From positions 868,001 through 932,000 of the forward strand of contig NZ_CP009832.1 of NCBI RefSeq assembly GCF_000959525.1: DNA of 64,000 bases, in the 5' to 3' direction. Each line of letters opens with the position of its first letter. Position 1 is the first letter of the stretch. This DNA comes from Burkholderia multivorans ATCC BAA-247. GTDB taxonomy: Bacteria > Pseudomonadota > Gammaproteobacteria > Burkholderiales > Burkholderiaceae. The notes under the pieces are model-generated. The model was given only the letters and a program-made list of their open reading frames with translations. It was not told the DNA's origin and searched no databases. Positions 51,561 through 62,241 of this stretch are shown one piece after another. The position numbers and the translations under genes were made by a program.

Positions 51561-51627
51561 GCGCGGGCGGGCGCCGGCCGCGGTGCCGGCGCGTGCTGCA
51601 TCGACCTTCTACGCTGGACGGGCAAGC

Positions 51628-52872
51628 ATGGATTTCGACGTGATCGTTCTGGGGGCCGGCATCGTCGGCGTGTCGTCGGCGCTGCACCTGCAGGATCGCG
51701 GGCTGCGCGTCGCGCTCGTCGACCGGCGCGATCCCGGCGAGGAAACGAGCCACGGCAACGCGGGGCTCATCGAGCGTTCGTCGGTCGTGCCGTATGCGTT
51801 TCCGCGCCGGCTCGGCACGTTGCTGCGCTATGCGCGCAATCGTTCGGTCGATCTCTACTGGGACTACCGTGCGCTGCCCGCGTATGCGGGCTGGCTCGCG
51901 CGGTTCTGGCGCGAGTCGTCGCCGAAACGCCTCGCGGCGGCCGCGCGCGACATGTTGCCGCTCGTCGCGGCGAGCGTCGTCGAGCACGATGTACTGCTTG
52001 CGCGCACCGACGCGCAGCCGCTCGTACACGACGGCGGATGGATCGAGGCGTTTCGCTCGCCCGCACTGTTCGATGAAGAGGCGCGCGCGCAGCAGCGCAT
52101 CGCCCATGCGCACGGCTTGCGGATGACGGTGCTCGATGCGCACGCGTTGCGCGCACGCGAGCCCGGCATCGGCGATGCGTTCTGCGGCGCGTTCCACTGG
52201 CAGGATCCGAAGACGGTGTCGAGCCCCGGCGGGCTCACGAAGGCGTACGCGCGATTGTTCGAGCGCGACGGCGGCACGTTCGTGCACGGCGACGCGGCGA
52301 CGCTCGCGCAGATACGCGACGGCTGGCAGGTCGCCACGGCGCACGGGGCGATGTCGGCGCGCTCCGTCGTCGTCGCGCTCGGGCCGTGGTCCGAGCGCGT
52401 GTTCGGGCCGCTCGGCTACCGGATTCCGCTGCGCGCGAAGCGCGGCTATCACATGCATTACCGGCCGACGCGCGCGCCGCTGCGCGTGCCCGTGTGCGAC
52501 ACCGAACAAGGGTTCGTCGTCGCGCCGATGGACGGCGGCCGCCTGCGGCTGACGACCGGTGTCGAGATCGCGCTACCCGACGCGCCGCCGACCGGCGTGC
52601 AGCTCGAGCGCGCGGAGCCGCTTGCGCGCGAGGCATTCGGTCTCGGCGAACGGCTCGATGCCGAACCGTGGCTCGGGCTGCGGCCGTGCACGCCGGACAT
52701 GCGTCCGGTGATCGGGCCGGCGCCGCGGCATCGCGGGCTGTGGTTCGCGTTCGGCCACTGCCACCACGGGCTGACGCTCGGGCCCGCGACCGGGCGTCTG
52801 CTCGCGGAGATGATGACCGGCACGCCGACCTACATCGATCCGCGTCCGTATCGGCCCGAGCGATTCGATTGA
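51628..52872 (+). CDS. FAD-dependent D-amino acid dehydrogenase (DadA/DauA-like)
   Basis: At 414 residues it begins DFDVIVLGAGIVGVSSALHL, the FAD dinucleotide motif, with SHGNAGLIERSSVVPYAFP typical of DadA-type dehydrogenases. KRGYHMHYRP and PWLGLRPCTPDMRPVIGPAP near the C-terminus complete the DAO fold. It oxidatively deaminates a D-amino acid, passing electrons to the respiratory chain. Context with the DauR- and DauB-like genes suggests D-arginine or another basic D-amino acid. ATG 51628 is chosen by the FAD motif position. Confidence 0.87.
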   Translation: MDFDVIVLGAGIVGVSSALHLQDRGLRVALVDRRDPGEETSHGNAGLIERSSVVPYAFPRRLGTLLRYARNRSVDLYWDYRALPAYAGWLARFWRESSPKRLAAAARDMLPLVAASVVEHDVLLARTDAQPLVHDGGWIEAFRSPALFDEEARAQQRIAHAHGLRMTVLDAHALRAREPGIGDAFCGAFHWQDPKTVSSPGGLTKAYARLFERDGGTFVHGDAATLAQIRDGWQVATAHGAMSARSVVVALGPWSERVFGPLGYRIPLRAKRGYHMHYRPTRAPLRVPVCDTEQGFVVAPMDGGRLRLTTGVEIALPDAPPTGVQLERAEPLAREAFGLGERLDAEPWLGLRPCTPDMRPVIGPAPRHRGLWFAFGHCHHGLTLGPATGRLLAEMMTGTPTYIDPRPYRPERFD

Positions 52873-53385
52873 GTTTTCGGCGATGCGCACATGCGTGCGC
52901 ATTTGCCGTTAACAATTGACGCCGGTGAATCGACGCAAAATCGCGGCGTTAACAATTTTTCGTTTTGCTGTCCGAATTGAGTTGAAACGACGATTCGCTG
53001 ATGAACCGCGTAAGGCGTCGGAAAGATATCGCGAAATCATAAAACCAGTAAATTCGCGATTTATCCGTGCATTTTCATATTCGTGAAAAGGAATATCTAT
53101 AGCGATCCGATTCGGCGTCCGCGACGCTGTCGAAACGATCGTTCGCAGATGTACCGGAACACGTTACCTTGGGGCTCGCAAACGTTACGTTACGTTTCTG
53201 CGCGGCACCGTTTTCTCGTATGAGGATTGACCCGTCGTATTTCGTTATTTCTTAATGGAGTCGGGCTTTTCTCGGTTATTGCATCGCAATAAATCGTGAA
53301 ATTCCGCGTGAATTTCGCGATGGCACACTTCATGCAACCTGTCCCCGTGCTTTATCAATGAAGTGCCAACCGAGATGAGGTCACG
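52873..53385 (+). promoter_or_regulatory. 513-base A/T-rich control region upstream of the giant repeat protein
   Basis: The GC content falls sharply here. GTTAACAATT occurs twice in direct orientation, at 52908-52917 and 52948-52957, exactly 40 bases apart. A perfect 6-6-6 inverted repeat, AAACGT-N6-ACGTTT, lies at 53180-53197. Just before the gene, GAGG sits five bases from ATG 53386. No small gene is convincing in this stretch. Long A/T-rich leaders like this often carry silencing or multi-regulator sites; that is inference. Confidence 0.5.
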
Positions 53386-56300
53386 ATGGGAAATAACTTT
53401 AAATTGACGGGTGGGGCGCTGGCCGTAGCGGCCGCGTTCGGGGTGCTGGCTTCGGGGTCGGCGGTTGCCGCGGCCGGTCCGCTCGATGGACTCTCGATTC
53501 CGCAGGTGATCGTCAATCCGCCGTCGCAAGGCGTATCGGCGAGCCTCACGGCGACGGGCACGACGCCGCTGGGCTCGGTTAACGTGACCGCATCCGGGTC
53601 CGGCTCGATCAGCACGTCGATCGGCAATCCGGGCAGCGTGCTGAACGGTGTCGCGCATACGGTGACCGGTCTGCTCGGCGGCGCCGGCGGCGGCACGGTC
53701 GATCCGCTCGGCCAGGTGCAGGGCGCGGTCGGGCAGGTGGTTGGCGCGCTCGGCGGCGGGAACGCGGGCGGTGCGGTTGGCGGCGCGGTGAGCGGTGCAG
53801 TGGGCGGTGCCGTCGGCGCCGTCACGGGCGCGCTCGGTGGCGCGAACAACCCGGCTGGCGCGCTGACCGGTGCGCTCAATACGGCAAGCGGCGCGTTGAG
53901 CGGTGCGATCGGGACGGCGACGGGCGCGCTCGGCGGAAGCGATCCGACGGGCGCGTTGAATGGGGTGGTTGGTACGGTCACGGGCGCGCTGGGTGGCGCG
54001 AACAATCCGACCGGTGCGCTGAACGGTGTGGTGAGCACGGTGACGGGTGCGCTGGGCGGCAACGGTCCGACGGGCGCGTTGAATGGGGTGGTTGGTACGG
54101 TCACGGGCGCGCTCGGTGGCGCGAACAATCCGACCGGTGCGCTGAACGGTGTGGTGAGCACGGTGACGGGTGCGCTGGGCGGTAACGATCCGACGGGCGC
54201 GCTGAATGGCGTGGTCGGTACGGTCACGGGTGCGCTTGGCGGTGCGAACAATCCGACGGGCGCGTTGAACGGCGTGGTCGGTACGGTTACCGGCGCCCTT
54301 GGCGGCGCGAACAATCCGACCGGTGCACTGAATGGTGTGGTGAGCACGGTGACGGGTGCGCTGGGCGGTAACGATCCGACGGGCGCATTGAACGGTGTGG
54401 TGGGTACGGTCACGGGTGCGCTGGGTGGCGCGAACAATCCGACCGGTGCGCTGAACGGTGTGGTCAGCACGGTTACGGGCGCATTGGGCGGCAACAACCC
54501 CACGGGCGCACTGAACGGTGTCGTGAACACCGCAACCAATACAGTCAACACGATCGTCGCTGCGCACGGCGCGCTGGATCAAGCGGTGCTTGATCTGGCG
54601 AGCAATGGGCTGAATAGTGCGGTCGGCACGGTCACGGGCGCATTGGGCGGTAACAACCCGACGGGCGCGCTGAACGGCGTGATCGGTACGGTCACCGGCG
54701 CCCTGGGCGGCGCGAACGGGCCGACCGGTGCGCTGAACGGCGTGGTCAGCACGGTGACGGGCGCGTTGGGCGGTAACGATCCGGCGGGCGCATTGAATGG
54801 CGTGGTCGGTACGGTCACGGGCGCACTTGGCGGCGCCAACAACCCGACCGGTGCGCTGAACGGTGTGGTCAGCACGGTGACGGGCGCGCTGGGCGGTAAC
54901 GATCCGACGGGTGCATTGAATGGCGTGGTCGGTACGGTTACGGGTGCCCTTGGCGGCGCGAACAACCCGACCGGTGCACTGAACGGCGTGGTCAGCACGG
55001 TGACGGGCGCGCTCGGCGGTAACGATCCGACGGGTGCATTGAATGGCGTGGTCGGTACGGTTACGGGCGCACTTGGCGGCGCGAACAACCCGACCGGTGC
55101 ACTGAACGGCGTGGTCAGCACGGTGACGGGCGCCCTCGGTGGCAATGGTCCGACGGGCGCATTGAACGGCGTCGTGACGACGGCGCAAGGCGCGGTCAAC
55201 TCGGTGACCGGCGCGCTGGGCGGCACGAATCCCGGCGGAGCGCTGAACGGTGTGGTCAGTACGGTCACGGGCGCATTGGGCGGCAATAACCCGACCGGCG
55301 CACTGAACGGTGTCGTGAACACCGCAACCAATGCAGTCAACACGATCGTCGCAGCACATGGCGCGCTGGATCAAGCCGTGATCGATCTGGCGAGCAACGG
55401 GCTGAACGGTGCCGTCGGCACGGTGACGGGCGCGTTGGGCGGCAACAATCCGACGGGTGCGCTGAACGGCGTGGTCGGCACGGTGCAGGGCACGGTGAAC
55501 TCGGTCACCGGTGCGCTCGGCGGCAGCAATCCGACCGGTGCGTTGAGCGGTGTCGTCAACACGGTGACGGGCGCCCTTGGCGGCAACAATCCGACGGGTG
55601 CGTTGAACGGCGTGGTGAGCACGGTCACCGGCGCGCTCGGCGGCAATGGTCCGACTGGCGCATTGAACGGTGTCGTGACGACGGCACAAGGCGCAGTCAA
55701 TTCGGTCACGGGTGCATTGGGCGGCACGAATCCCGGCGGCGCGCTGGGCGGTGTGGTCGACAAGGTGACGGGCGCACTTGGCGGCAGCAATCCCACGGGT
55801 GCGCTGAACGATGTGGTGAGCACGGTCACCGGCGCGCTGGGCGGCAATGGCCCGACCGGCGCATTGAACGGCGTCGTGACCACGGCGCAAGGCGCGGTGA
55901 ATTCGGTGACCGGGGCCCTGGGTGGCACGAATCCCGGCGGCGCGCTGAGCGGTGTGGTCGATAAGGTGACCGGGGCACTGGGCGGCAGCAATCCGACGGG
56001 TGCGTTGAACGGCGTGGTGAGCACGGTCACCGGCGCGCTCGGCGGCAATGGTCCGACCGGCGCATTGAACGGCGTCGTGACCACGGCGCAAGGCGCGGTG
56101 AATTCGGTCACGGGCGCACTGGGCGGCACGAATCCGGGTGGTGCGCTGAGCGGTGTGGTCGATAAGGTGACCGGGGCACTGGGCGGCAGCAACCCGACCG
56201 GTGCACTGAACGGCGTCGTGACGACGGCGCAAGGCGCGGTGAATTCGGTCACCGGGGCGCTCGGCGGCACGAATCCTGGTGGTGCGCTGGGCGGTGTGGT

Positions 56301-59181
56301 CGACAAGGTGACGGGCGCACTGGGCGGCAGCAACCCGACCGGTGCGTTGAACGGCGTAGTCGGCACGGTGACCGGCGCGCTCGGGGGCAATGGCCCGACG
56401 GGCGCGTTGAACGGCGTCGTCACGACGGCACAAGGCGCAGTGAATTCCGTTACCGGAGCGCTTGGCGGCACGAATCCGGGCGGTGCGCTGAGCGGTGTGG
56501 TTGATAAGGTGACCGGCGCATTGGGCGGCAGCAATCCGACGGGTGCGTTGAACGGCGTCGTGACGACGGCACAGGGCGCAGTGAATTCGGTTACCGGAGC
56601 GCTTGGCGGCACGAATCCGGGCGGTGCGCTGAGCGGTGTGGTTGATAAGGTGACCGGCGCATTGGGCGGCACGAATCCGACGGGCGCGTTGAACGGCGTC
56701 GTGACGACGGCACAGGGCGCAGTGAATTCGGTTACCGGAGCGCTTGGCGGCACGAATCCCGGCGGCGCGCTGGGCGGCGTGGTGAGCACGGTGACCGGCG
56801 CGCTCGGTGGCAATGGCCCGACGGGCGCACTGAACGGCGTCGTCACGACGGCACAAGGCGCAGTGAATTCGGTCACCGGGGCACTGGGTGGCACGAATCC
56901 GGGCGGCGCGCTGAGTGGTGTGGTCGACAAGGTGACGGGCGCGCTGGGCGGAGCCAATCCGACTGGCGCACTGAACGGCGTCGTAACGACGGCACAGGGC
57001 GCAGTGAATTCGGTCACGGGTGCACTGGGCGGCACGAACCCCGGCGGCGCGCTGAGCGGTGTGGTCGACAAGGTGACCGGCGCACTGGGCGGCGCGAATC
57101 CGACGGGTGCACTGAACGGCGTCGTAACGACGGCACAAGGTGCAGTGAATTCGGTGACGGGGGCGCTCGGCGGCACGAATCCGGGCGGTGCTCTGGGCGG
57201 CGTGGTCGATAAGGTGACCGGCGCACTGGGCGGCACGAACCCGACCGGTGCACTGAACGGCGTGGTAAGCACGGTCACCGGCGCGCTGGGTGGCAACGGC
57301 CCGACGGGCGCGTTGAACGGCGTCGTCACGACGGCACAAGGCGCGGTGAATTCGGTCACGGGTGCACTGGGCGGCACGGATCCCGGCGGCGCGCTGAGTG
57401 GTGTGGTCGACAAGGTGACGGGCGCGCTGGGCGGCACCAACCCGACTGGCGCACTGAACGGCGTCGTAACGACGGCGCAAGGTGCGGTGAACTCGGTGAC
57501 GGGCGCACTGGGCGGCACGAACCCGACTGGCGCGCTGAACGGCGTCGTGACGACGGCACAAGGTGCGGTGAACTCCGTGACCGGCGCACTGGGCGGCAAC
57601 AACCCGACCGGCGCCCTGAACGGTGTCGTGACCACGGCGCAAGGTGCGGTGAACTCGGTGACGGGCGCACTGGGCGGCAACAACCCGACGGGCGCGCTGA
57701 ACGGCGTGATCGGCACGGTGACGGGCGCATTGGGCGGCACCAACCCGACCGGCGCACTGAACGGTGTCGTGACCACGGCGCAAGGTGCGGTGAACTCGGT
57801 GACGGGCGCACTGGGCGGCAGCAACCCGACGGGCGCGCTGAACGGCGTGATCGGCACGGTGACGGGCGCATTGGGCGGCACCAACCCGACCGGCGCACTG
57901 AACGGTGTCGTGACCACGGCACAGGGCGCGGTGAACTCGGTCACCGGCGCACTCGGCGGCACGAACCCGACCGGTGCACTGACCGGCGTCGTCAACACCG
58001 CGCAAGGCGCCGTCGGCGCTGTCACGAGCACGCTGGGCAGCGGCAACCCGACCGGCGCGCTGAGCAACGCCGTGAACACGATCACGGCCGGCCTCGGCAA
58101 CCTGAGTGGCGGTTCCGGCCCGCTCGCCCCCGTGCAGGGTGCGGTGACGCAGCTCGCCGGCACGCTCGGCGGCAGCGATCCGGCTGCGGTGCTCGGCAAT
58201 GCGGTGAACACGCTCACCGGCACGCTGGGTAATCTCGGCGGCGGTGCGGGTCCGCTCGCGCCGGTGCAGGGTGTCGTCAATCAGGTCGTCGGCACGCTGT
58301 CCGGTGCGGCGGGCGGCGGCAGCCCGATCACGCCGATCACGAATCTCGTGAGCGGTCTGACGGGCGGCGGCAACCCGGCCGGCGCAGTGACCGGCGCACT
58401 GGGCTCGGTGACGGGCGCACTCGGCAATCTGGGCGGCACGAACCCGCTCGCGCCGGTGCAGGGCGTCGTCACGCAGGTCGTCGGCGCGCTCGGCAACGCC
58501 AACCCGACCGGCGCACTCAGCGGCGCGCTGAACTCGGCCACGGGCGCGCTCGGCGGCGCAGTGAGCTCGGTGACGGGCGCACTGGGCAACCTCGGCGGCG
58601 GTGCAGGTCCGCTCGCGCCGGTGCAGGGTGTCGTCAACCAGGTCGTCGGGACGCTGTCCGGCGCAGCAGGCGGCGGCAGCAGCCCGATCGCGCCGATCAC
58701 GAACCTCGTGAGCGGTCTGACGGGCGGCGGCAACGCGGGCGGTGCAGTGACCGGCGCGCTCGGTTCGGTGACGGGCGTGCTCGGCAACGCCGGCGCATCG
58801 CTGTCGCAGACGGTGGGCACGCTGAGCGGTGCAGCCGCGAGCGGTTCGTCGGCGATCGGCCAGGCGGGCAGCGCACTGTCGGGCGTGGCCGGTTCGGGCG
58901 CGGCGGCGGGCGGCAGCCTGCTCGGCTCCGGTGCCGCTGCCGGCGGCAGCGTGCTCGGCTCGGGCGCCAGCGCGGCAGGCAGCACGACCGGTGCAGTCGG
59001 TGGACTGCTGACGGCCGGCGGTAACGCGGCCGCCACGGTCGTCAACGCGGTCGGCACGACGCTGGGCGCGGCGCCGGGCCTGTCGGTCTCGACGCACTCG
59101 AACGGCACGAGCGCGGCGAACAATCCGCTGGCACCGGTGTCGTCGCTGATCCAGTCGCTGACCGGCGGGTTGTCGAAGTAA
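53386..59181 (+). CDS. Giant secreted Gly/Ala/Val/Thr repeat protein
   Basis: The 1931-residue protein starts with a Sec-type signal peptide (MGNNFKLTGGALAVAAAFGV, likely cleavage after VAAA). A 100-residue unique region follows, then about 58 imperfect tandem units of 20, 21 or 27 residues with the core PTGALNGVVSTVTGALGGN, occupying roughly residues 150-1550. The final 370 residues are looser repeats with PLAPVQGVVNQVVGTLSGA and ITNLVSGLTGGG, ending LIQSLTGGLSK. I see no Cys, Trp or Tyr, no autotransporter barrel, LPXTG or RTX motif. Hydrophobic spacing suggests each unit is one short amphipathic helix plus a GGNxP turn. Possible roles are surface, matrix or adhesin protein; the function is unknown. 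Confidence 0.85.
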   Translation: MGNNFKLTGGALAVAAAFGVLASGSAVAAAGPLDGLSIPQVIVNPPSQGVSASLTATGTTPLGSVNVTASGSGSISTSIGNPGSVLNGVAHTVTGLLGGAGGGTVDPLGQVQGAVGQVVGALGGGNAGGAVGGAVSGAVGGAVGAVTGALGGANNPAGALTGALNTASGALSGAIGTATGALGGSDPTGALNGVVGTVTGALGGANNPTGALNGVVSTVTGALGGNGPTGALNGVVGTVTGALGGANNPTGALNGVVSTVTGALGGNDPTGALNGVVGTVTGALGGANNPTGALNGVVGTVTGALGGANNPTGALNGVVSTVTGALGGNDPTGALNGVVGTVTGALGGANNPTGALNGVVSTVTGALGGNNPTGALNGVVNTATNTVNTIVAAHGALDQAVLDLASNGLNSAVGTVTGALGGNNPTGALNGVIGTVTGALGGANGPTGALNGVVSTVTGALGGNDPAGALNGVVGTVTGALGGANNPTGALNGVVSTVTGALGGNDPTGALNGVVGTVTGALGGANNPTGALNGVVSTVTGALGGNDPTGALNGVVGTVTGALGGANNPTGALNGVVSTVTGALGGNGPTGALNGVVTTAQGAVNSVTGALGGTNPGGALNGVVSTVTGALGGNNPTGALNGVVNTATNAVNTIVAAHGALDQAVIDLASNGLNGAVGTVTGALGGNNPTGALNGVVGTVQGTVNSVTGALGGSNPTGALSGVVNTVTGALGGNNPTGALNGVVSTVTGALGGNGPTGALNGVVTTAQGAVNSVTGALGGTNPGGALGGVVDKVTGALGGSNPTGALNDVVSTVTGALGGNGPTGALNGVVTTAQGAVNSVTGALGGTNPGGALSGVVDKVTGALGGSNPTGALNGVVSTVTGALGGNGPTGALNGVVTTAQGAVNSVTGALGGTNPGGALSGVVDKVTGALGGSNPTGALNGVVTTAQGAVNSVTGALGGTNPGGALGGVVDKVTGALGGSNPTGALNGVVGTVTGALGGNGPTGALNGVVTTAQGAVNSVTGALGGTNPGGALSGVVDKVTGALGGSNPTGALNGVVTTAQGAVNSVTGALGGTNPGGALSGVVDKVTGALGGTNPTGALNGVVTTAQGAVNSVTGALGGTNPGGALGGVVSTVTGALGGNGPTGALNGVVTTAQGAVNSVTGALGGTNPGGALSGVVDKVTGALGGANPTGALNGVVTTAQGAVNSVTGALGGTNPGGALSGVVDKVTGALGGANPTGALNGVVTTAQGAVNSVTGALGGTNPGGALGGVVDKVTGALGGTNPTGALNGVVSTVTGALGGNGPTGALNGVVTTAQGAVNSVTGALGGTDPGGALSGVVDKVTGALGGTNPTGALNGVVTTAQGAVNSVTGALGGTNPTGALNGVVTTAQGAVNSVTGALGGNNPTGALNGVVTTAQGAVNSVTGALGGNNPTGALNGVIGTVTGALGGTNPTGALNGVVTTAQGAVNSVTGALGGSNPTGALNGVIGTVTGALGGTNPTGALNGVVTTAQGAVNSVTGALGGTNPTGALTGVVNTAQGAVGAVTSTLGSGNPTGALSNAVNTITAGLGNLSGGSGPLAPVQGAVTQLAGTLGGSDPAAVLGNAVNTLTGTLGNLGGGAGPLAPVQGVVNQVVGTLSGAAGGGSPITPITNLVSGLTGGGNPAGAVTGALGSVTGALGNLGGTNPLAPVQGVVTQVVGALGNANPTGALSGALNSATGALGGAVSSVTGALGNLGGGAGPLAPVQGVVNQVVGTLSGAAGGGSSPIAPITNLVSGLTGGGNAGGAVTGALGSVTGVLGNAGASLSQTVGTLSGAAASGSSAIGQAGSALSGVAGSGAAAGGSLLGSGAAAGGSVLGSGASAAGSTTGAVGGLLTAGGNAAATVVNAVGTTLGAAPGLSVSTHSNGTSAANNPLAPVSSLIQSLTGGLSK
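53860..58050 (+). repeat. Coding tandem repeat array of 60, 63 and 81-bp units
   Basis: In-frame tandem repeats encode the giant protein. The first part (to about 55.1 kb) alternates 20- and 21-residue units; the second (about 55.2-57.5 kb) mainly alternates a 27-residue unit containing VVTTAQGAVNSVTGALGG with a 20-residue unit containing GVVDKVTGALGG. Two longer 53-residue units carrying AHGALDQAV lie about 790 bases apart. Synonymous differences between units are frequent, so the array is not a very recent expansion. Confidence 0.9.
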
Positions 59182-59233
59182 CGCCGGACGCAGTACGCGC
59201 GGCGGCATTGTCCGCCGCGCATCCGGTCGTAGG

Positions 59234-59270
59234 ACGCGGCATGACGGTAACGTCATGCCGCGTTTTGTTT
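59234..59270 (+). terminator. Strong intrinsic terminator after the repeat protein gene
   Basis: A 13-bp perfect stem (ACGCGGCATGACG at 59234-59246 with 59251-59263), GTAA loop and TTTGTTT tail, 53 bases after the stop. It isolates the repeat gene from the downstream sigma factor operon. Confidence 0.93.
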
Positions 59271-59360
59271 GGTGTCGCGCGTTCGTGCGCCGACGCATCG
59301 CAGTCACATCGAGCATCTGCACGATGGCGAGATTGCGCGATGGAGATTGCACGACCGCAT

Positions 59361-59491: not shown

Positions 59492-59851
59492 ATGAAAACG
59501 ATGTTGTTCGCCGTCGCGCTGACGGCTGCGATCGCGCGGCCGGCGGCCGCGGAACCGCCGCAGGTCGGCGACGGGAAGCTGGTCGACGACGAGCACATGA
59601 CGCTCTACGTGTTCGACCGCGACGCACCGGGCAAGAGCGCGTGCACGGGCACGTGCGCGGCGAACTGGCCGCCGGCGCTCGCCGATGCGTACGACAAGCC
59701 GTCGGGCGCACTGAGCGTCGTCGCGCGCGACGACGGCAAGATGCAATGGGCGTACAACGGTCGTCCGCTGTATCGCTGGAAGATGGATCGCAAGGCCGGC
59801 GATGCGGGCGGCGACGGCGTCGGCGGCGTCTGGCACGTCGCACATCCGTGA
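59492..59851 (+). CDS. Secreted COG4315/PF03640-type repeat protein
   Basis: The 119-residue protein has a signal peptide (MKTMLFAVALTAAIARPAAA) and two copies of the lipoprotein-associated secreted repeat: MTLYVFDRDAPGKSACTGTC followed by AANWPP, and WAYNGRPLYRWKMDRKAGD followed by GVWHVA. Two Cys (SACTGTC) could form a disulfide or bind metal. The family has no known reaction and often lies beside ECF sigma factors and cupredoxins. AAGGAG precedes ATG 59492. It starts a six-gene operon. Confidence 0.87.
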   Translation: MKTMLFAVALTAAIARPAAAEPPQVGDGKLVDDEHMTLYVFDRDAPGKSACTGTCAANWPPALADAYDKPSGALSVVARDDGKMQWAYNGRPLYRWKMDRKAGDAGGDGVGGVWHVAHP

Positions 59852-59878
59852 CGGCCGCGCCGCGCGCGGGATCGTCGC

Positions 59879-60394
59879 ATGAGCTACGAATCGGACCTGC
59901 TGGTGTGGCTGCCGCATCTGACGCGGTATGCGCGCGCGCTGACGGGCGATCGGGCCTGGGCGGACGATCTCGTGCAGGACACGCTCGAGCGCGCGCTGAA
60001 CCGGCCGCCGCGCGATGCCGGCAATCTGCGCGCGTGGCTGCTGACGCTGCTGCGTCACCGCTTCATCGATCAGTTGCGCGCGCGGCATGAAGTAGCCGTC
60101 GACGACGCGACGGCGCCATGGCAGACGCTCGCCCCGCCTCCGGGCGACGTGGGCGGCCTGATGCTGCGCGACGTGCAGCGCGCGCTGTACCGGCTGCCGG
60201 TCGAGCAGCGCGAGGTGCTGCTGCTGGTCGCGCTCGAAGAGCTGAGCTACCGCGATGCCGCGCAGGTGCTCGGCGTGCCGGTCGGTACGGTGATGTCGCG
60301 GCTGTCGCGCGCGAGAGAGCAGATGCGGGCGCTGCTGTCCGGGGAACCGGCCACGCATGGCACGGCCGCGTTACGGGTGATCGGGAAGACATGA
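59879..60394 (+). CDS. ECF-family RNA polymerase sigma factor
   Basis: At 171 residues it has sigma region 2 (LTRYARALTGDRAWADDLVQ, LRAWLLTLLRHRFIDQLR) and region 4 (LPVEQREVLLLVALEELSYRD, LGVPVGTVMSRLSRAREQM), and no regions 1 or 3, the ECF layout. It directs transcription of its own operon and perhaps other genes under an envelope signal. Its stop overlaps the anti-sigma gene (ATGA), a common arrangement ensuring balanced production. Confidence 0.93.
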   Translation: MSYESDLLVWLPHLTRYARALTGDRAWADDLVQDTLERALNRPPRDAGNLRAWLLTLLRHRFIDQLRARHEVAVDDATAPWQTLAPPPGDVGGLMLRDVQRALYRLPVEQREVLLLVALEELSYRDAAQVLGVPVGTVMSRLSRAREQMRALLSGEPATHGTAALRVIGKT

Positions 60395-61173
60395 TGGACG
60401 AGTCGCGCACACCTTCGGACGATCGGGACGACGAAGCGTCGGCGCAGCTGCTGTCGGCGCTGCTCGACGGCGAGCTGTCCGCGCACGAACGCCGCGAGGT
60501 ACTCGAACGTCTGCAGTCGGATCCGCGCGAAGCGGACCGGTTCGTGCATTACCGTGCCCAGCGCGACGCACTGCACGCGTTGTTTCCGCTGTCGCCCGCC
60601 ACGTCGGCGCTGTTCGTGCAGCGCCGCGCATCGCGCCGGCCCAGATTCGCCTACGCGTTCGCGGGGCTCGCGGCCGGGCTGCTGATCGGCATCGCGCTGC
60701 ACGCGGGCTGGACTGCACTGGGTGCTGCCCCGGAATTCGCTACGCGCGCCGATGCGGCGTACGCTGTCTATGCGGCCGACCGCGACCATCCGGTGGAAGT
60801 CGATGCGCGCGACCCGGAGCGTTTGGCTGCGTGGCTGTCCGCGCGGCTCGGGCGGCCGGTGCGCGCGCCGTCGCTCGGCGAATACGGCTACGCGCTGCTC
60901 GGCGGCCGTCTGCTGCCCGGCGACGCAGGGCCGGCCGCACAACTGATGTACCAGCGCGCGGACGGCGACCGCGTGACGCTCTACATGACCGCCTACGACG
61001 CGCGGCGCGTGGCGCCGCAGCCGTTATCGGCCGACGGTCGCTACACGTACTTCTGGTCGGATCGCGGCATGGGTTATGCGCTGTCCGGCGGTGGCGACGA
61101 ACGGCGCGTTCGCGAACTCGCGATCGAGGCGTGCGGCGCACTCGGCGGACCGGTCGGCGCGTGGAGCGGGTGA
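60391..61173 (+). CDS. Membrane-bound anti-sigma factor
   Basis: The 260-residue protein has an RseA/FecR-like N-terminal cytoplasmic domain (AQLLSALLDGELSAHERREV, DRFVHYRAQRDALHAL), one membrane helix at about 82-104 (YAFAGLAAGLLIGIALHAGW), and a periplasmic domain of about 150 residues (GYALLGGRLLPGDAGPA, MYQRADGDRVTLYM). No HxxxCxxC zinc motif is visible. It should hold the adjacent ECF sigma factor inactive until a periplasmic signal triggers release. Confidence 0.88.
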   Translation: MMDESRTPSDDRDDEASAQLLSALLDGELSAHERREVLERLQSDPREADRFVHYRAQRDALHALFPLSPATSALFVQRRASRRPRFAYAFAGLAAGLLIGIALHAGWTALGAAPEFATRADAAYAVYAADRDHPVEVDARDPERLAAWLSARLGRPVRAPSLGEYGYALLGGRLLPGDAGPAAQLMYQRADGDRVTLYMTAYDARRVAPQPLSADGRYTYFWSDRGMGYALSGGGDERRVRELAIEACGALGGPVGAWSG

Positions 61174-61192
61174 CGCGCGCACGGAGCGAACG

Positions 61193-61612
61193 ATGAAAGC
61201 GATGGCGGCGGTATGGGCAGGACTGGTTGTGCTCGCAGCAGGCACCGGATTTGCGTACGCGGACGACGATGCACCGGTGCGCGTGCCGATCGATCCGGAC
61301 GGCGTGCAGCGCGTGACGATCGTCGGCGGCAGTTATTTCTTCCGGCCGAACCACGTGATCGTGACCGCGCAGGCGCCCGTCGAGCTGACGGTGTCGGCGG
61401 AGCCGGGGATCGTGCCGCACAGTTTCCGGATCGATGCGCCGCAGGCCGGCATCGACGTGCGCACGGAACTCGCCACGACGCCGCGCACCTTCCGTTTCAC
61501 GCCGACGCAACCGGGCCGCTTTGCCTACTATTGCACGCACCGGTTGCCGTTGTTCGGCAGCCATCGCGCGCGCGGCATGGAAGGCGTACTGGACGTCGAG
61601 GCCGCGCCGTGA
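61193..61612 (+). CDS. Periplasmic cupredoxin-like protein
   Basis: The 139-residue protein has a signal peptide (AAVWAGLVVLAAGTGFAYA) and a cupredoxin fold: SYFFRPNHVIVTAQAPVELTV, VPHSFRID with a likely copper His, and YYCTHRLPLFGSHRARGMEG with Cys, His and Met in the usual order, close to the C-terminus. It may bind copper or carry electrons in the periplasm. It follows the anti-sigma gene by 19 bases, and its stop overlaps the next GTG start. Confidence 0.85.
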   Translation: MKAMAAVWAGLVVLAAGTGFAYADDDAPVRVPIDPDGVQRVTIVGGSYFFRPNHVIVTAQAPVELTVSAEPGIVPHSFRIDAPQAGIDVRTELATTPRTFRFTPTQPGRFAYYCTHRLPLFGSHRARGMEGVLDVEAAP

Positions 61613-62241
61613 TTGCCGCGTTGCTGGCCGCGAGCCTGATAGGAGCGAGCATGACAGCCGATCCCGTGACCGTTGCGCAGTCGCAGTTCGACCACGTGCA
61701 CTCGTACCGCGCGACGATCCGTTCGACCGCGAGAAGCGGCGAGCACACCGAAATCCGCTATGCCTATCTGAAACCGGGCTTCGTCCGGATGGACTTCGTG
61801 TCGCCGCACCACGGCGCGGTGCTCGCGTACGATCCGGACGACGGCAAGGTGCGGCTGCGTCCGTTCGGCGTGCATATGCCGCCAGCGCTGACGCTGTCGC
61901 CCGACAACCCGATGGTGCGCGACCGCAGCGGCCATCGCGTCGACCGGTCGGACGTCGGCCAGCTGCTGCGCAACGTCCACGCGCTGCAGCAGGGCGGGGC
62001 GACGGTGAGCGAAGGCGAGGAGACGGTCGGCGGCCGCACGACGTTGCGCGTATCGGTGACGGGCGCGCCGGCACAGGCGGTCGACGGCGTGCATCGCTAC
62101 CGATTGTGGCTCGATACCGAGGACGGATTTCCGCGCAAGGTCGTCAGCTTTGCCGATGACGACGGCGAGCCGCTCGAAACCGTGACGCTCGACGACATCG
62201 AGCTCGACGTCGCGTTTCCCGAGCGTTTTTTCTCGCCCTGA
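61609..62241 (+). CDS. Secreted LolA/RseB-like (DUF1571-type) protein
   Basis: A GTG start at 61609 overlaps the cupredoxin stop and gives 210 residues with a short hydrophobic signal (IAALLAASLIGASM). The body resembles LolA/RseB half-barrel proteins of the DUF1571 type: FDHVHSYRATIRSTARSGE, RYAYLKPGFVRMDFVSPHHG, RYRLWLDTEDGFPRKVVSF. RseB-like proteins modulate anti-sigma factors, so a regulatory tie to the neighbouring anti-sigma protein is possible. A lipid- or lipoprotein-binding role is the alternative. Confidence 0.78.
   Translation: MIAALLAASLIGASMTADPVTVAQSQFDHVHSYRATIRSTARSGEHTEIRYAYLKPGFVRMDFVSPHHGAVLAYDPDDGKVRLRPFGVHMPPALTLSPDNPMVRDRSGHRVDRSDVGQLLRNVHALQQGGATVSEGEETVGGRTTLRVSVTGAPAQAVDGVHRYRLWLDTEDGFPRKVVSFADDDGEPLETVTLDDIELDVAFPERFFSP

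Follow-up and report, generated by a model that had tools for sequence, protein, structure and literature searches.

The closest described relatives of the locus examined in this study are the 'collagen-like' Bcc lipoproteins of the BCAL1524/BCAL1523 type, which carry the Collagen_mid domain (PF15984). Deletion of BCAL1524 left 17.7% of the optical density after settling, up from 11.9%, reflecting less autoaggregation, and a BCAL1524 gel spot observed with wild-type outer-membrane vesicles was missing from mutant vesicles (PMC10303873). The same deletion left biofilm unchanged and caused milder symptoms in Galleria (PMC10303873). BCAL1520, BCAL1523, BCAL1524 and flp genes are upregulated upon contact with host membrane vesicles (PMC7970998), and BCAL1520 together with several of BCAL1528-1534 is downregulated in a cepR mutant (PMC2753556). 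Disorder has been proposed for these lipoproteins (PMC10224339).

The regulator GtrR (BCAL1536; PMC9684580, PMC12838280) comprises 463 amino acids in strain H111 (PMC8174753). Described as a global regulator, it works together with RpfR and affects further genes, cepI among them (PMC8174753, PMC12838280); the two proteins link BDSF and c-di-GMP to gene expression (PMC12838280). A comparable arrangement is found in the biofilm genes of B. cenocepacia controlled by RpoN and BerB (berA, bep), where, as at the locus described here, a sigma54 box is paired with an activator connected to c-di-GMP signalling (PMC5552954).

Herein we describe a repeat protein encoded in a 64,000-nucleotide stretch of Burkholderia multivorans ATCC BAA-247 DNA (the window). 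We refer to this secreted protein and its relatives as class A, and to the BCAL1524-type Collagen_mid lipoproteins as class B. Class A proteins resemble BCAL1524 and BCAL1523 in their LAPV...VSTVTGALGG-kind unit, LAPV tail, near-zero charge and composite promoter, but they lack a lipobox, the Collagen_mid domain and the GTS tract, and are up to three times longer. Through the promoter and repeat common to both classes, class A is tied to a candidate activator that has a name and to a relative whose phenotypes have been published. What is new is the placement of class A in a two-class, two-promoter system with such an activator. A repeat protein that lacked annotation thereby becomes half of a system that spans the genus and can be tested.

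A secreted repeat protein at a conserved Burkholderia locus

Features of the class A gene and its surroundings are listed in Table 1. A preliminary description of the region had noted a 1931-residue repeat protein with about 58 tandem units and no Cys, Trp or Tyr. These properties are confirmed, and a composition count reveals that Arg and Glu are missing as well; the protein has 493 Gly, 25 Asp and 12 Lys residues. The signal peptide, the GGNxP turn and the lack of a visible surface anchor are likewise supported by the sequence and alignments. No lipobox Cys follows the signal peptide; neither the window protein nor any of the 41 class A proteins (one cut by a contig end) contains Cys, and Trp is also absent from all 41. 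The conserved N-terminal domain is probably a small beta hairpin, as suggested by two strands in a low-confidence AlphaFold2 model.

The repeat core originally quoted holds for the local unit but not for the relatives, whose array alternates a 24-amino-acid unit (AGALTGALGTVTGALGNVGGGTNP) with a 20-amino-acid unit (LAPVQGVVNQVTGALGGGNP). Repeat arrays of the class A gene are also detected at the DNA level by TRF. The gene has an AT-rich leader, and the suggestion that it possesses its own control region and terminator agrees with its conserved promoter islands and a terminator-like hairpin with a T-run. On the opposite strand, an ORF of 2035 amino acids (window 53245-59352, minus strand) covers the whole class A gene. 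Because this frame is open over >97% of the gene in just 15 of 41 loci, the window among them, we take it as a by-product and reject an overlapping antisense gene.

Table 1. Features of the class A locus, with window coordinates unless a locus is named.
Feature	Position	Strand	Basis
Flanking FAD oxidoreductase (DAO) gene	51583..52872	+	Pfam; upstream in 38/40 orthologous loci
Enhancer-like element ATGTACCGGAACACGTTAC...AAACGTTACGTTAC	53149..53193	+	Island in 41-region alignment; strict pattern in 36/41
Composite GTTACNTTAC-N(114-144)-TGGCAY-N6-TGC	53184..53335	+	One of 2 own-genome sites
Sigma54-type -24/-12 box TGGCACACTTCATGCA, TGGCAC-N5-ATGCA	53321..53336	+	Strict pattern in 36/41 loci
Class A gene, 1931 aa, ATG start	53386..59181	+	ORF listing
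Signal peptide without lipobox, residues 1-30	53386..53475	+	Sequence, alignments; cleavage site by eye
Conserved N-terminal domain, residues 31-105	53476..53700	+	Profile of 41 rows, mean column identity 81%
Repeat array, residues 188-1555: 58 consecutive tandem units (20, 21, 27 or 53 aa each)	53947..58050	+	Splitting at turn
Older LAPVQG-type units, like those of relatives	58051..58686	+	
Conserved C-terminal region, last residues NNPLAPVSSLIQSLTGGLSK	58687..59178	+	Alignments; tail motif
Terminator-like hairpin and T-run	59235..59266	+	Longer stem by eye; tool gives 59245-59260
Flanking Lipoprotein_15 gene	59492..59851	+	Pfam; downstream in 36/40 loci
Flanking ECF sigma factor gene	59879..60394	+	Pfam; downstream in 36/40 loci
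ShlB/FhaC-type outer-membrane translocator (POTRA_2, ShlB), class B operon	L040:6242-7927	-	Pfam

The class A locus is conserved in the genus Burkholderia, and the window protein is the longest member found. When its first 126 residues were used as a query, 47 of 65 genomes of the genus gave a match; leaving out one (G052, E = 7e-4), class A is present by its N-terminus in 46 of the 65 (E = 7e-22 or better), and 11 further genomes were added by promoter (see below). Forty orthologous loci were fetched, giving alignments of 41 with the window. The 40 complete proteins, window included, range from 458 to 1931 amino acids, with the second longest at 1163; the protein cut by a contig end (L068) was excluded from length and tail counts. 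Of 41 genomes sampled from the genus, 33 match an N-terminal profile, and a scan of the collection with N-terminal peptides recovered one locus, in Burkholderia sp. Bp8963. Class A was not found in G057, a genome that is 82% complete, nor was a class A locus tag found in J2315 or H111. Seven genomes without class A have an empty site, in which the aligned ends of the flanking genes lie 143-734 bp apart with no such repeat ORF between them. Downstream of the gene, the window carries at 59492-62241 (plus strand) a Lipoprotein_15 gene, an ECF sigma factor, an RseA_N-like anti-sigma factor and a DUF1571 gene, a neighbourhood seen in most orthologous loci.

Searched against Pfam at E values up to 10, the window protein has no match, and 50 class A proteins yield five scattered Pfam families at E 0.001, each in at most two members. 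The protein is not an orphan; it belongs to a conserved genus locus, and its repeat is common to two Collagen_mid lipoproteins. No Rfam families were found in the region, and a search for relatives of class A with solved structures gave no significant match.

Two other likenesses were considered. Ebh/EbhA of Staphylococcus is a giant helical surface protein and, like class A, is very long and built of helical repeats. However, the matches to it are not significant (E = 0.24 and 1.6), and class A units are short (20-27 amino acids), Gly-rich and nearly uncharged. The RiPP precursor TigB (NF047709) has low-complexity repeats of a similar make-up, and its model matches 16 of 50 class A members at E 0.001 (best E = 8.9e-20). 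A TigB precursor was rejected for the window protein, which scores 23.6 bits versus a cut-off of 70. Nineteen other rescanned members also remain below 70 bits, the best score in a rescan of 10 class A members is 48.7 bits, and no RiPP modifying enzyme is present among seven neighbours scanned. Transfer of the name from the RiPP_TigB model to class A proteins could mislead.

Selection on the repeats

Substitution rates were computed between equal-length units of the window gene. Units of 21 amino acids exhibit 37.5% synonymous versus 2.4% nonsynonymous differences (dN/dS 0.047), and those of 27 amino acids exhibit 46% versus 3.9% (dN/dS 0.055). For the 20-amino-acid units, a class that mixes unit types, the values are 41.5% and 16.5% (dN/dS 0.31). 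The repeats of the class A protein are under purifying selection, and the low dN/dS between units indicates that selection acts on the protein sequence and not solely on a DNA repeat.

Class A length (458 to 1931 amino acids) and the seven genomes with an empty site could be taken to indicate a repeat artefact or a decaying gene that lacks function. Given the dN/dS of about 0.05 between 21- and 27-amino-acid units, the open frames of all 40 complete class A genes found by N-terminus, each running from signal peptide to conserved tail, and the promoter conserved upstream of 45 of 46 genes, we regard this explanation as very improbable.

Helix-type periodicity of the repeats

Hydrophobic residues of the repeats had been proposed to fall at helix-like spacing. 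Recurrence of L, V and I in class A bears this out, with peaks at lags of 3, 4 and 7 residues (1.75, 1.83 and 2.16 times chance) and near-absence at lags of 2 and 5 (0.03 and 0.09 of chance). This periodicity is common to three protein sets, as the corresponding values are 1.37, 1.60 and 1.93 (lags 2 and 5, 0.11 and 0.31) for diverged class A proteins and 1.59, 1.80 and 1.94 (0.04 and 0.20) for class B. A core length was obtained for 953 of 1007 segments cut at the turn, 720 of which are 11 residues long, 61 are 22 and 21 are 18, lengths that approximate whole helical turns; many of the remaining values represent fused units left unsplit by the parser. The hydrophobic moment at 100 degrees exceeds that of shuffled sequences for the 27-amino-acid unit (p = 0.019) and two trimmed cores (p = 0.025 and 0.004), and weakly so for the 24-amino-acid unit (p = 0.06), the LAPV unit (p = 0.10) and its trimmed core (p = 0.08). 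The whole 20-amino-acid unit is not above shuffles (p = 0.26).

Gly makes up about a quarter of the residues in class A proteins. In window-type members it recurs at lag 4 (1.56) and lag 7 (1.41), with only 1.21 at lag 3. This pattern and the lack of a Pfam Collagen match led us to reject a collagen fold (Gly-X-Y triple helix) for class A, in keeping with the preliminary description.

That description also advocated structure prediction of 5-10 units. AlphaFold2 models six window units as six helices, one per unit, with breaks at GGxNP (mean pLDDT 42). For a 458-amino-acid relative, a helix is predicted in almost every unit, along with the two strands of the N-terminal domain (mean pLDDT 35). 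Because of these low mean values, use of the models was limited to the secondary-structure trend. Of the stack of amphipathic helices envisaged originally, a helix per unit is supported at this low confidence, but stacking is not.

Low pLDDT values (42 and 35), the abundance of Gly and the disorder proposed in print for class B (PMC10224339) would also suit repeats that are disordered in solution, acting as a flexible low-complexity brush or condensate former in which helices are induced only by a membrane or a partner. We consider such disorder rather unlikely. The avoidance of L, V and I at lags 2 and 5, together with the peaks at 3, 4 and 7, is stricter than a brush requires, and the periodicity is retained in diverged class A proteins despite their other repeat sequences. 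Moreover, low pLDDT may stem from the shallow alignments used (18 and 6 rows).

A repeat and tail common to Collagen_mid lipoproteins

A profile of the 88-amino-acid double unit, derived from 19 segments in relatives, was used for the repeat search recommended in the preliminary description. At E 0.01 it recovers three proteins only from the same genome (6.32 Mb, 3 contigs), namely class A and a pair of Collagen_mid lipoproteins, with best E values of 1.4e-9 and 4.3e-6. Both lipoproteins adjoin Flp pilus genes, an arrangement that matches the published one of BCAL1524 and BCAL1523, and the class A and class B genes are far apart on the chromosome. These findings tie the lipoproteins next to the Flp cluster to a giant secreted partner encoded elsewhere. 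Among the matches listed for 200 genomes across the order (109 genera) at E 1e-6, only this same genome appears.

The two classes differ in domain content. PF15984 is present in all 47 class B proteins that are complete in the fetched stretches (of 63 class B sites) and in both paralogues of the own genome, versus 0 of 50 class A proteins. A LAPV-type tail motif is common to them, occurring in 40/40 class A, 8/10 diverged class A and 46/47 class B proteins, compared with 10/1940 shuffles.

A composite sigma54-type promoter upstream of both classes

Alignment of 41 class A upstream regions reveals islands amid variable sequence, including ATGTACCGGAACACGTTAC..AAACGTTACGTTAC and TGGCACGCTTCGTGCA. 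The consensus for sigma54 promoters is TGGCAC-N5-TTGCA, and the TGGCACGCTTCGTGCA island carries the GG and GC of such a promoter at the correct spacing. A conserved GTTACGTTAC enhancer sits 127 bp upstream of this sigma54-type -24/-12 box. The box alone is not significant in a scan of the window (1 match versus 1.5 expected with up to one mismatch), and no sigma70 promoter was found upstream of class A. The class B upstream region of the same genome has GTTACGTTAC plus TGGCACGACAGTTGC at nearly the same spacing as in class A.

The composite of enhancer and box occurs at two sites in the 6.32-Mb genome, before class A and before the BCAL1524-type lipoprotein, with no site for the reversed control. 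This count is partly by construction, as the pattern was written after those two sites; scans of the genus and family therefore serve as independent tests. The enhancer half-site matches exactly at one further place, on contig C2, which was judged to be due to chance; no prominent sigma54 box is present there (14 loose matches versus 20.8 expected in the 19-kb locus).

Across the genus, all 65 genomes carry the composite, with 120 sites in total and a single site for the reversed control. Forty-five sites lie 51-57 bp upstream of the start codon of class A, which accounts for all but one of the 46 genomes with this gene; the exception, G003, has class A without the strict composite. Among the other 75 sites, 74 were read, of which 63 precede a lipoprotein, 10 precede a diverged class A gene by our class rules and one (L138) does so by eye, having failed these rules, which are simple signal-peptide patterns. 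Thus, all 119 of the 119 sites examined, a set that leaves aside the second composite site of G063, stand before class A or class B.

The diverged class A proteins had been missed by sequence search (except for a possible weak match in G052) but carry a signal peptide of the same style as class A. Ten of the 11 are complete, and 8 of these 10 have <2% charged residues, and 8 of the 10 carry the LAPV-type tail. Two proteins, L141 and L142 (329 and 328 amino acids, from genomes of 5.5 and 5.8 Mb), lie behind a composite but have 10% charged residues and almost no repeats. Their placement in class A is by promoter and signal peptide, and the LAPV tail is absent. In G012, a third composite (L151, contig 3) precedes a second Collagen_mid lipoprotein on another replicon.

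Because this distinctive control switch is common to both, our data suggest that class A and the surface lipoprotein work together on the cell surface. A different reading is that class A works alone, as a secreted adhesin or a surfactant-like protein, having only the promoter in common with class B and making no contact with it. The distance between the two genes on the chromosome and the absence of Collagen_mid from all 50 class A proteins scanned are compatible with independent roles. So are the seven empty-site genomes, each with one composite, upstream of class B; these genomes lack class A but retain class B, so the lipoprotein does not require the secreted protein. We nevertheless judge the stand-alone reading to be improbable, as repeat, tail motif and promoter are all common to the two classes.

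GtrR as the likely activator

The Flp cluster terminates in a gene for a 463-amino-acid protein with Sigma54_activat and HTH_8 domains, which adjoins the lipoprotein operon and the Flp pilus genes. A published gtrR reverse primer is identical to the last 20 bases of this gene, and the forward primer matches at 16 of 20 positions (PMC8174753).

Among 298 Burkholderiaceae genomes, the composite is present in 78 (40/40 of the genus and 38/258 others), compared with two genomes for the reversed control. A GtrR homologue (E = 1e-90 or better) is encoded in 78 of 78 composite-bearing genomes versus 89 of 220 without the composite, and the composite occurs in 0 of 131 genomes that lack a GtrR homologue. 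Fisher tests of this association give p = 8e-25 for all genomes and 7e-14 outside the genus, values that are not corrected for phylogeny. Furthermore, at least 26 of the 38 genomes outside the genus have a composite no more than 15 kb away from the activator gene. By co-occurrence and linkage, the likely activator of both promoters is GtrR (BCAL1536).

Sigma54 could instead read both promoters with a different enhancer-binding protein as their activator, GtrR being linked by neighbourhood only. Several such activators per genome are possible, for example BerB (PMC5552954), and no GtrR site sequence was found in the published work consulted. BerB itself was rejected because the berA promoter of this genome, a BerB target, lacks the composite motif and its GTTAC enhancer; unlike class A, the berA product regulates polysaccharide genes. 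In view of the absence of the composite from every genome without a GtrR homologue and its frequent location close to the activator gene, control by a different activator seems to us quite unlikely. A literature search conducted largely without subscription papers found no published description of class A, nor of a GtrR sigma54 promoter. For GtrR, a quorum-sensing regulator of Burkholderia, the present data predict a binding sequence as well as two direct targets under sigma54.

A proposed two-part surface coat

We hypothesize that class A forms the secreted part of a helical surface coat with two components, linked to quorum and driven by GtrR and sigma54, a reading to which we assign a probability of about one half. 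At high cell density, we infer that the enhancer-binding protein GtrR would bind the GTTACGTTAC enhancer and activate sigma54 RNA polymerase at two promoters, those of class A and of the class B operon. Class B would be lipid-tethered to the outer membrane, whereas class A would be secreted across it with no anchor. Both would present nearly uncharged, Gly-striped amphipathic helix tracts and a LAPV-type tail. Co-produced at quorum, the two classes may make contact through these common helices, and we infer a function in which the tracts pack together within and between cells to promote autoaggregation and early adhesion alongside the Flp pilus. An uncharged, Gly-striped helix plus a turn would be a simple design for a self-assembling bacterial surface polymer. 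The matrix, surface-coat or adhesin role put forward in the preliminary description is better grounded through the candidate activator and a relative with phenotypes, but the role itself is still putative.

Several observations weigh against this coat. The effects of RpfR-GtrR on cepI and other genes are unexplained by a two-promoter sigma54 regulon, biofilm is unaltered after BCAL1524 deletion (PMC10303873), and 89 genomes carry the activator without the strict composite. Confidence in the AlphaFold2 models is low (42 and 35), disorder has been put forward for class B (PMC10224339), and L141 and L142, with 10% charged residues, have no LAPV tail. The seven empty-site genomes also retain class B in the absence of class A.

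The route of class A through the outer membrane is a matter for a guess, in which the ShlB/POTRA_2 protein of the class B operon (Table 1) may serve as the exporter. No exoprotein partner of this ShlB-type translocator was recognised in the class B operon, and its J2315 counterpart has been annotated as heme-utilization-related (PMC10224339). No TPS or haemagglutination Pfam match indicative of a two-partner secretion (TpsA) domain was found in 50 class A proteins. A fuller proposal, which we hold tentatively and consider unlikely, is that the two-promoter sigma54 regulon builds the coat while the translocator exports class A by using its N-terminal domain as a new signal. If this were true, cell-surface assembly would be a main direct role of GtrR, and the term 'collagen-like' would misname class B.

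Occurrence outside the genus

Judged from promoter sites alone, the composite in 38 of 258 family genomes outside Burkholderia suggests a wider system.

A search of the 258 genomes of other genera with the N-terminal profile gave one weak match, L089 (E = 2.9e-4). This locus encodes, at L089:7034-8734 (plus strand), a class A-like protein of 566 amino acids with LAPVTG units and a LAPVTGLLTAVTGALPR tail. Upstream of the gene, a relaxed composite with one mismatch was seen by eye.
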